Origin: Bordetella genomosp. 4
GTDB taxonomy: Bacteria; Pseudomonadota; Gammaproteobacteria; Burkholderiales; Burkholderiaceae_B
DNA length: 64,000 bases
Direction: 5' to 3'
NCBI RefSeq assembly: GCF_002261185.1
Contig: NZ_NEVQ01000022.1
Coordinates: 186,001-250,000 of the forward strand
A program made the position numbers and the translations under genes. The notes beneath the pieces were generated by a model. That model worked only from the letters and a program-made list of their open reading frames with translations. It ran no database searches and was not told where the DNA came from. Below, in pieces: positions 14,237 to 46,416 of this stretch; within the stretch, counting starts at the first letter, position 1, and the number at the start of each line of letters is the position of its first letter.

Positions 14237-14269
14237 AAAAAAAAGCCCGAGATCTTGCGATCTCGGGCT
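14237..14269 (-). terminator. intrinsic terminator of the small RNA
   Basis: On the minus strand AGCCCGAGATC, GCAA loop and GATCTCGGGCT form an 11-bp perfect stem, followed by U8 (14244-14237). This is a textbook rho-independent terminator oriented for the small RNA. Confidence 0.9.
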
Positions 14270-14389
14270 AAATCCACCAAAGGAGGAGGGTGGAGGAGAC
14301 AACCGGGGCATGTTGGGGTGAACACTGCATCAGGTTCTACCGCTACGCATCGGGGTGATTCACCGCGCCGCTGCGTTTTCAACATCCAT
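14237..14389 (-). ncRNA. candidate small RNA with anti-Shine-Dalgarno loops
   Basis: A free-standing transcription unit of about 153 nt. It starts near 14389, just after a strong promoter, and ends at an 11-bp hairpin with a GCAA tetraloop and eight U residues (14237-14269). Just before the terminator, a 6-bp stem (14273-14278 with 14289-14294) displays the loop CUCCUCCUUU, a perfect complement of an ideal ribosome-binding site, and a second CUCCUCC lies directly 5'. Two more C-rich segments (CACCCC, GCCCCGG) lie further 5'. A nine-codon frame (MDVENAAAR) begins at the predicted first base. It resembles what I recall of the Rfam 'Betaproteobacteria toxic small RNA'; that match is untested. 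Confidence 0.65.
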
Positions 14390-44363: not shown

Positions 44364-44450
44364 GAACAGGCTCCAGGGTGGCGGCATCGCCTCGAGGTTA
44401 CGGAATGCCGGTCTGGATGCGGAAAGCGCCAGAAACCAGCTGGATTTTCC

Positions 44451-44692
44451 GCCCCTCTGTCCTTTTGCCTGAGAGTTGCCCCGCGTTGTGCGGGTTTGCA
44501 CCTTCGGCGCCTGGGCTACGCACGGAATCCGCGGCGCCAGGTCTCTCCAGAGTGCTGTGTCAGCGACCTGCCTTGGCCCAAGGCCAGAGAGGAAACTGAT
44601 GCGTCGCGGTATGGGTTACCTGAGCGATTCCGGGCGAATTGCGCCTTCGGCGGCGACCCTATACCTTGGTGGTGGGCCGCTCTCTCCCGCGA
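44451..44692 (-). ncRNA. tandem glycine riboswitch controlling gcvTHP
   Basis: On the minus strand two aptamers follow each other. The 5' aptamer begins CGGGAGAGAGC and holds GCCGCCGAAGGCGCAA, CGCTCAGG and CCTCTCTGG. The 3' aptamer begins CTCTGGAGAGACC and holds GGCGCCGAAGGTGCAAA, CTCTCAGG and GGACAGAGG. These GAGAG/CCGAAGG-GCAA/CTCAGG blocks are the conserved core of glycine riboswitches. The 3' end lies 87 nt before the gcvT start. A GCGGAAA/TTTCCGC hairpin directly after it may be part of the expression platform; it lacks a T-tract, so translational control is more likely than termination. Confidence 0.93.
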
Positions 44693-44796
44693 CGAACATG
44701 ACAGCGGAGTGAAGCATACCGCGAAAAGCGGGGTGCCGACTAGCGGCGGCGTGCCGGTTTTCCATACTCGAGACAGTTGGATATCAAAAAGCCTCC

Positions 44797-44838
44797 GAGG
44801 GGGGCAGTAAGCCGTAAGGCGCGGCGTGGGGCTTTTTT
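44797..44838 (+). repeat. dispersed GC-rich repeat, copy 1 (terminator-like)
   Basis: GGGGGGCAGTAAGCCG, then TAAGGCGCGGCGTGGGG, ending in CTTTTTT. The upstream AAAAAGCC (44786-44793) can pair with GGCTTTTT, so the unit can act as a terminator on either strand. It is about 90% identical to copy 2 next to it. Confidence 0.65.
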
Positions 44839-44872
44839 GCCGCCGGGCCGCCCCGAGGCAAAAACGCCCCCT

Positions 44873-44914
44873 TGGGGGGCAGCAAGCCGAAGGCGCGGCG
44901 TGGGGGCTTTTTTT
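44873..44914 (+). repeat. dispersed GC-rich repeat, copy 2 (terminator-like)
   Basis: GGGGGGCAGCAAGCCG, then AAGGCGCGGCGTGGGGG, ending in CTTTTTTT. The preceding AAAAACGCCCCC (44860-44871) pairs with GGGGGC and the T-tract. It is a direct repeat of copy 1, offset by 76 bp, and matches the minus-strand copy at 13841-13873. Confidence 0.65.
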
Positions 44915-44962
44915 ACGCCACGGTTGTAGTCTGTGGCATGCGTAGTGTGGAGTTCTTTTGGC

Positions 44963-45096
44963 GCAGGAGGTCGGCGTGTAAAAGCCCCACCGGGCCTATC
45001 GCCGCGACTCGGCCCATGACCAGGGGCCTCGGCCCGCTTCGCGGGCTAAATCGCGGCTCAACGGCCCGGTGGGGCTTTTACACGCCAACCTCCTGC
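44963..45096 (-). repeat. 134-bp structured inverted-repeat element A
   Basis: The arms 44963-44996 and 45063-45096 are 34 bp and complementary at 33 positions; the single exception is a G-U pair if the minus strand is read as RNA. The 66-nt core folds further: GCCGCGA/TCGCGGC (45001-45007 with 45051-45057) encloses a GGCCC/GGGCC hairpin (45011-45015 with 45024-45028) and a CCCGC/GCGGG hairpin (45033-45037 with 45041-45045), a three-way junction. The arms contain AAAAGCCCCACC/GGTGGGGCTTTT, which looks like a former terminator stem. Element B has the same plan with a homologous core. Confidence 0.85.
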
Positions 45097-45259
45097 TCGC
45101 AATGTCTTCCGGTGACGGATGTCATGCGCTTTGCTGCATCAACTCTGTTGTGTTGAGTTCACGATGGCCGAATGGCACTAGCTCAACCCACCGCATTGCC
45201 AAAGTCGGTTTCGAAAAACACGGATGGCAATCAGCCCTCGTTGCATTCCCTCATCATGA

Positions 45260-45393
45260 GTCCCTGTCGCGTGCCTGGGCGTGGTGCCGGGCCGTTGAGC
45301 ACGGATTCAGTCCGCGCAGCGGACCGAGGCCCCTGGTCACGGGCCGAGTCCGTGCGATAGGCCCGGCGCCACGCCCAGGCACGCGACAGGGAC
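45260..45393 (+). repeat. 134-bp structured inverted-repeat element B
   Basis: The arms 45260-45293 and 45360-45393 are 34 bp with 33 Watson-Crick pairs and one G-U pair. The 66-nt core is 55/66 identical to that of element A read in reverse complement. The differences at the enclosing stem change all three affected pairs together (C-G, G-C and C-G become A-T, C-G and G-C), and the small hairpin changes C-G to T-A. Only the innermost 7 bp of the arms, GGCCCGG, match element A; the outer 27 bp are unrelated. Confidence 0.85.
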
Positions 45394-45446
45394 GCCTTCA
45401 AAAAGACAATCTAAGAGCAGCAAACGCCCACAACACCAACAGCGAT

Positions 45447-45482
45447 AAAAAAATGCCACTCAGCGCTTCACTGACCAGCATT
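45447..45482 (-). terminator. weak intrinsic terminator after the ZIP transporter gene
   Basis: On the minus strand ATGC...GCAT enclosing TCAG/CTGA forms an imperfect stem followed by seven T (45453-45447). It lies 40 bp after the transporter stop and is the only T-tract hairpin there. Confidence 0.45.
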
Positions 45483-45522
45483 TCCCGTTTGGGCGAGGCG
45501 AGCTGCATTTGGCGCAGCTGAT

Positions 45523-46416
45523 TTACCCCAGCGCAGTATCCAGCAACATCATCAGGACAAAACCGATCATCAGGCCCCCGGTCGCAAAAACCTCGTGGCC
45601 CTTGCGGTGGGATTCCGGAATGATTTCATGACTGATGACAAACAACATGGCGCCCGCCGCAAAGCCCAGCCCCCAGGGCAGCAGCTCCGCGGACCAGCCG
45701 ACCACGAGGGCTCCTACGACCGCTCCCAAGGGCTCCACGAGCCCCGACAGCATGCCGAGCGCCACGGAAAACGCCCGGCTATAGCCCGCCGACAGCAACG
45801 CCAGCGCCACCACCAGCCCTTCGGGCACGTCCTGGATCGCGATCCCGGTCGCGAGCGCGCTGCCTTGTACCGGGTCATTACCCACATATCCAACGCCGAT
45901 AGCCAGGCCCTCGGGCAGGTTATGCAGCGCAATGGCAAACACAAACAGCCAGGTGCGGCGCAAACGGTGCACCTCGATGCCTTCTTTGCCTTTGATGAAA
46001 TGTTCGTGGGGCAAGAGACGATCCATCGTCAACAACACCGCCGCACCCAATAGAATCGCGCCGCCGACGATGAAACCCGAGCCCCAGGGCCCATGCCCCA
46101 ACTGGCCGGCGGCTTCCAGACCTGGCGCCACCAGGGAAAAGGCGCAGGCCGCCAACATGACGCCCGCGCCAAATCCAAACATCGTGTCCTGGACCTTGTC
46201 GGACAGGGTTTGCGAGAACATCACCGGGACCGTCCCCAGCGCCGTCGCGCCCGCTGCCAGCAATCCGCCCGCCAATGCATTGGCGACATGCGGCGCACGC
46301 GGCAACAGATATTCCCACAACGCGTAGGCGCCCAGACACGCGACCAGAACAGCCAGTGTCCAGATACTGACGCTGGTCAGTTGCGGGCGAATACGGTGAC
46401 GGCTGAATGTGTTCAT
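45523..46416 (-). CDS. ZIP family divalent metal transporter
   Basis: 297 residues with eight hydrophobic segments. The metal-path motifs are visible: HNLPEGLAIGVGYVGND in helix IV and QDVPEGLVVALALL in helix V, both typical of the GufA/ZupT branch, which imports Zn, Mn or Fe. The start is ATG 46416, leaving 37 bp after the SOD gene; longer starts would overlap the SOD gene. Grouping with an Mn-type SOD behind a Fur-like box suggests metal supply under iron limitation. Confidence 0.87.
   Translation of the reverse strand: MNTFSRHRIRPQLTSVSIWTLAVLVACLGAYALWEYLLPRAPHVANALAGGLLAAGATALGTVPVMFSQTLSDKVQDTMFGFGAGVMLAACAFSLVAPGLEAAGQLGHGPWGSGFIVGGAILLGAAVLLTMDRLLPHEHFIKGKEGIEVHRLRRTWLFVFAIALHNLPEGLAIGVGYVGNDPVQGSALATGIAIQDVPEGLVVALALLSAGYSRAFSVALGMLSGLVEPLGAVVGALVVGWSAELLPWGLGFAAGAMLFVISHEIIPESHRKGHEVFATGGLMIGFVLMMLLDTALG

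Follow-up and report, generated by a model that had tools for sequence, protein, structure and literature searches.

What are the two structured elements, A and B, that lie in inverted orientation within a 64,000-nt window of Bordetella genomosp. 4 DNA? We consider it reasonably probable that they are the inverted halves (Y and X, respectively) of one dispersed, non-coding and probably mobile repeat unit of Alcaligenaceae. The anatomy of the elements, the covariation of their copies and the arrangement of these copies in related genomes are considered in turn.

Anatomy of the window unit

Element A (Y type) folds on the minus strand, with its 5′ arm at 45063..45096, its apical core at 44997..45062 and its 3′ arm at 44963..44996. 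Element B (X type) folds on the plus strand, with the 5′ arm at 45260..45293, the core at 45294..45359 and the 3′ arm at 45360..45393. Each thus consists of a 34-nt arm, a 66-nt core and a second 34-nt arm, and the coordinates of the original prediction are confirmed to the base. The core of element A is a three-way junction composed of a 7-bp stem, 6-bp and 5-bp hairpins and a GUUGA/GAUA internal loop. A spacer of 163 bp (45097..45259), a length found in three source-genome pairs, links the halves at their 5′ sides. Beyond the 3′ arms lie conserved flanks: that of the Y half is element-owned (44929..44962, reading GCCAAAAGAACTCC... on the minus strand), as defined by the conservation profile of 14 Y copies, and that of the X half (45394..45424, plus strand) has the consensus GTCTTAATAGAGACACCC..CGCCAGCAAA in the profile of 33 X copies. 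The whole type I unit (Y half, spacer and inverted X half) occupies 44929..45424, with approximate ends placed by similarity to the unit at locus L014.

The arms are 97% complementary in both elements. Folding energies on the better strand are −117.9 kcal/mol for element A (z −15.5) and −123.4 kcal/mol for element B (z −13.9), and 0 of 200 shuffles equals either value. Comparison by eye in one orientation shows 11 differences over the 66 core positions, as had been predicted. These include four compensated pairs, three in the 7-bp stem (C-G/A-T, G-C/C-G and C-G/G-C) and one in the apical hairpin (C-G/T-A); the original prediction had the number right but gave this hairpin five pairs, where it has six. 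The three remaining differences fall singly in loops or at the junction, again as described.

Covariation and strand bias

A core search of the 5.53-Mb source genome returned 39 matches, around which 40 copies were read. Alignment A2 contains 38 of them and leaves out L012 (at a contig end and probably the same copy as L013) and L033 (with a core deletion); a weak copy at C6:227670 (79 bits) was left unused. The covariance model R1, built on A2, matches 50 places in the source genome on one strand at ≥90 bits, two of which lie at contig ends and probably represent the same copy. The folded outward strand is called R here (minus for A, plus for B), and it reads in order a 34-nt arm, GUWGA, the 7-bp stem, the 6-bp hairpin, the 5-bp hairpin, the closing strand, GAUA and a 34-nt arm.

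Across the 38 copies, the stems are preserved rather than broken: 99.2% of 1968 pair cells are paired (100% in the core stems), compared with 76.6% in shuffled alignments, and 39 of the 52 pairs show changes on both sides. The covariation score is 0.597 against 0.170 for shuffles (0/500 reaching it) and 0.058–0.088 for slid controls; since the copies are related, the shuffles overstate significance, whereas the slid controls are less affected. The conserved three-way-junction fold with compensatory change, proposed from A and B alone, is therefore borne out. Arm length is exactly 34 bp in 29 of the 38 copies and 32–36 bp in the others.

Departures from Watson-Crick pairing are strand-biased. 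On R, the arm mismatches of the source-genome copies are 27 G.U, 3 A.C and 4 others, and the core wobbles are 13 G.U and 0 A.C. Among 4127 pairs in 127 copies from 13 other genomes, counted with both wobbles penalised equally, there are 68 G.U, 11 A.C and 41 others; the strand of these relatives was picked by R1, itself built on R, and the core motif agrees with it. The arms of type II, a larger-core form described below, give 27 G.U and 1 A.C over 58 distinct copies, once 18 A.C at one fixed position in an internal loop are set aside. R is also the more stable fold in 48/49 source-genome and 105/127 other copies, a preference that depends partly on the wobbles and is not independent evidence. 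R lies on one DNA strand in one half of a pair and on the other strand in its partner, so a double-stranded or replication-level cause of the bias would be unexpected. The strand-biased wobbles point to a folded single strand, either RNA or ssDNA.

Paired units and genomic placement

With double counts removed, there are 134 units, made up of 41 pairs and 93 singles; the table of copies from other genomes leaves out opposite-strand matches and those in genomes G031 and G013. The R strands point outward in 40 of the 41 pairs, so that the pairs are inverted and, with the accompanying singles, have the doublet organisation of REPINs. A GT-type arm (X) is joined with a GC-type arm (Y) in 34 of the 41. 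Between about 44931 and 45450, most 20-base steps of the window pair are about 95–100% identical to the L014 pair, and similarity drops beyond; L013, at a contig start, has the same pair as the window. The flanks beside the arms are conserved as well.

None of the 134 units overlaps a predicted ORF, in agreement with the earlier statement that the elements contain no coding frame; genes were called with a codon model made for this analysis rather than taken from annotation. The neighbouring genes are codirectional for 59 units, convergent for 44 and divergent for 17, with 14 undetermined, and in a small control from the window, 4 of 27 gaps >60 bp are convergent. Singles between codirectional genes have R in the mRNA sense in 28 of 39 cases (p 0.009). 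The tail 14–65 nt behind the hairpin on R is C- and A-rich (C 0.39–0.44, G 0.13–0.18), compared with C 0.31 and G 0.29 downstream of 25 gene ends in the window. Judged from composition, such a C-rich, G-poor tail could reflect either a target preference or a Rho-type tail. The sequence between widely spaced source-genome copies holds genes that look ordinary, judged from the start of their translations only.

Distribution and larger cores

R1 matches all 8 other genomes of the genus (4–28 matches apiece) and at least 17 of 268 genomes of the taxonomic family, including G031 and G013. The G013 match has a larger core. Those in G031 were rejected as family members, being by eye an unrelated GGGGTCAGACCCC repeat; at L052 and L064 of this genome, which belongs to a different genus, the repeat is a long palindrome nearer to RAYT doublets than to the type I/II family (by eye). 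A pattern scan of named genomes returned 65 stretches, 63 of them from Bordetella (including petrii, ansorpii and genomosp. 2, 7 and 13); the other two are taken for chance.

Type II, found through a match in another genus, has a similar chassis with a larger apical core, and the branched cores range from 66 to about 137 nt. In the source genome it occupies at least 40 places (40 of 95 candidates were scored), many of them paired 620–670 bp apart. Eleven units at different loci can be aligned over about 880 bp with sharp common ends and differing surroundings, and 8 of these are 89–94% identical. In the type II alignment, from which the structure itself was predicted, 94.4% of cells are paired and the covariation score is 0.522 versus 0.175. 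The type II model, R2, matches at least 73 of 268 family genomes in at least 15 of 43 genera, and at least 4 of 399 genomes drawn from the taxonomic order, all four in the same taxonomic family; the family-wide searches with both models applied stricter filters. Genus g6 has a still larger core; each of two genomes gives 21 matches, some of them incomplete.

Variability differs sharply within the 8 related type II units: 3 of 120 columns vary in the arms, 122 of 542 in the spacer (Fisher p 1e-8, arms versus spacer) and 44 of 210 in the cores. The arms thus appear constrained in the short term while changing by compensation in the long term, although conversion between copies could also contribute to their low variability. 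The type II apical helices differ by whole cassettes, the same cassette turning up in left and in right halves (L305 and L309–L315; by eye), a pattern that suggests exchange between copies. In the source assembly (G000), contigs C3, C4, C8, C10, C14, C15 and C21 end at or near type II copies.

Several of these features go beyond the original prediction: A and B together make up a single inverted unit, the copies number in the dozens, the wobbles are strand-biased, the arms and near flanks are element-owned, and a second apical core exists.

Site history

The relative G007 has a ZIP gene (PF02535), a tandem glycine riboswitch and a gcvT-like gene (the last judged by eye) in the same order as the window. 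This syntenic site has about 100 bp and lacks the element. The other seven genomes of the genus have different sequence beside the ZIP gene (by eye), and R1 finds no match in this ZIP-side stretch; because of the different sequence, they say little about occupancy. The empty-site evidence comes from one syntenic relative, which limits its support for mobility.

Eighteen groups of sites have a common flanking gene between species in a one-sided comparison, so many copies may be old, which speaks against mobility. The arms at such sites are usually very different, yet each is self-complementary (by eye), and an X half in one species may correspond to a Y half or a pair in another, or a pair to a single. 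The 5′ arms of L215 and L221 are identical.

Proposed mobility and the search for an enzyme

The reading that we favour is that types I and II are REPIN/MITE-like, non-autonomous mobile repeats that are recognised as a single strand. It is supported by the number of copies, their covariation, the geometry of the pairs, the strand-biased wobbles, the repeated units with common ends and the empty syntenic site. Each half would fold on its outward strand into a 32–36-bp arm carrying the branched apical core, and this folded strand, RNA or ssDNA, would be what is recognised and selected. Units would spread as pairs, with singles as their probable remnants, and would move rather than being lost elsewhere, presumably through an enzyme acting in trans.

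MITE-like intergenic repeats such as ERIC/RU and Correia are small, non-coding, dispersed and structured, and are probably moved in trans. Type II units likewise have terminal inverted repeats and no coding capacity, as MITEs do; here, however, the ends are long hairpins of changing sequence, and a non-exhaustive search found no parent IS. Several further results count against mobility. No transposase was found, no ORF is common to the units (8 units compared), no target duplication is visible by eye around the 11 type II units, and RAYT genes have no match in the source genome. Core columns of type II vary at the spacer's rate, which confines the visible short-term constraint to the arms. Plasmids gave no matches for types I and II, nor did phages for type II.

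The only IS found at the units in a non-exhaustive search is a Mutator-type one (PF00872) in G152. There, uniform 1.9-kb pairs were considered as an autonomous form and rejected: the extra 1.4 kb is this IS, present in both orientations and 99.8–100% identical over about 1382 bp. It lies between pair halves or beside one half at 8 of 11 G152 loci (L335–L341 and L345), and the repeat units look like a preferred landing site for it.

Beside six Bordetella RAYT genes, R1 has no matches, and R2 has three weak ones (19–27 bits) that represent another doublet, GGTGTCTGACACC; the RAYTs thus have a REP of their own. These doublets, at L159:2056-2156, L160:2163-2258 and L161:2240-2322 near the RAYT (PF01797) genes, are apparently the REPINs of the Bordetella RAYTs and a family separate from types I and II.

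Alternative explanations

The main rival of the mobile-repeat reading is a host RNA module, in which the outward strand would be an mRNA 3′ end whose hairpin blocks exonucleases and whose C-rich tail loads Rho, the unit thereby insulating genes from one another. The tail behind the hairpin, unlike that of the 25 window gene ends, fits this, as do the mRNA-sense bias of the codirectional singles and the absence of units from ORFs. However, species differ in copy number and sites, convergent genes do not flank 76 of the 120 units for which both neighbours were called, and the window unit has no promoter-like site, so that we regard such a module as rather unlikely. A further reading, possible though doubtful, is a new class of mobile RNA-based element. 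It would be an inverted pair of structured RNAs whose double-stranded arms are free in sequence and whose apical domain can be exchanged (type I, type II and the larger core of one genus), and either its spread or a host function would depend on the folded RNA. Ordinary bidirectional intrinsic terminators would also place hairpins near gene ends, but the hairpins have no T tract behind them, and a scan of 44400–45540 gave two terminator-like sites, neither inside the elements; this explanation is very improbable.

Selection on the fold, as originally proposed, is likely but unproven, since template switching between arms could also give compensated changes. Neutral palindromes would then be kept perfect during replication, and their covariation would be uninformative on function. 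Consistent with this are arms that differ between species at common-gene sites while remaining self-complementary, and arm-length changes that affect both arms. Template switching should nevertheless treat G.T and A.C alike, contrary to the observed ratios (27:3, 68:11 and, for type II, 27:1), and the wobble-favoured strand is a different DNA strand in each half of a pair. If the arms drifted neutrally and were copied one from the other, they should also vary as much as the spacer, which the type II columns contradict. We therefore judge template switching improbable as the explanation. REPINs proper, mobilised by a RAYT (IS200/IS605-type) transposase, resemble the present units in their inverted doublets, their singlets left as remnants, their location outside genes and their compensatory changes (PMC3116915). 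The source genome has no RAYT match, however, the Bordetella RAYTs have the GGTGTCTGACACC REP, and the present units have a branched apex and stems of several times the length, which leaves this identity scarcely credible.

Relation to known repeats

REPs are 20–40 bp long with short stems (5–13 bp) and GTAG or CGTC tags (PMC3116915 and PMC3733652). As described there, REP, BIME and REPIN sequences resemble types I and II in forming intergenic inverted doublets alongside singles, in their hairpins and compensatory changes, in often being heterodimers and in lying in many cases at gene 3′ ends. They differ in size and architecture: the arms here are 32–36 bp and the units about 500 bp (type I) and 880 bp (type II), the core is branched and of 66 to about 137 nt, and neither type is a short tagged palindrome. 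A resident or linked RAYT is also absent here.

Two Bordetella repeats deserve comparison. Bor-2, reported in 2008 from B. bronchiseptica, is a 167-bp intergenic repeat with predicted structure (P 1.00) and 17 copies, 6 of them full length (PMC2267715); its comparison with types I and II is by description only. The Bor short repeats (PMC1590033) lie near coding regions and thus resemble types I and II in their gene-adjacent placement in Bordetella, but they measure only 26–30 bp.

The family had not been recognised in the original prediction, and Rfam 15 indeed gives no match at the gathering score for the window elements or for 17 loci of both types. At E<=1 on the window elements, MIR8788 scores 53 and 48 bits, where its cut-off is 124, accompanied by weaker, mainly miRNA-shaped hits; these sub-cut-off hits are taken to reflect hairpin shape, and MIR8788 was dismissed as an identity. 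No such family appears in the repeat-word search of the accessible text of the B. petrii genome paper (PMC2572626), and no description was found in the open-access literature, including the available portions of PMC2817692 and PMC4624362. A large non-coding repeat family of Bordetella and its relatives is thus apparently undescribed, Bor-2 having been compared by description only.

A much-sequenced bacterial family seems to have hidden a large structured repeat family. Its many copies, strand-biased covariation, common and private sites and exchangeable cores make it a test bed for a selected single strand, and it offers a way to ask which enzyme moves bacterial intergenic repeats. It also carries a caution: before covariation in long hairpins is taken to indicate RNA function, the strand needs to be tested.

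Neighbouring features

The tandem glycine riboswitch upstream of gcvT, also present in G007, consists of two aptamer matches (RF00504) at 44447-44699 on the minus strand. Between it and the unit, at 44786-44912, a terminator-like repeat (GGGGGGCAGYAAGCCG..GGCGCGGCGTGGGG..TTTTT), perhaps of the Bor-1 kind, occurs twice in direct orientation, and a similar repeat stands beside the L014 copy. Elsewhere in the window, a Betaproteobacteria toxic small RNA (RF02278, 69.6 bits) is matched at 14237-14301 on the minus strand.
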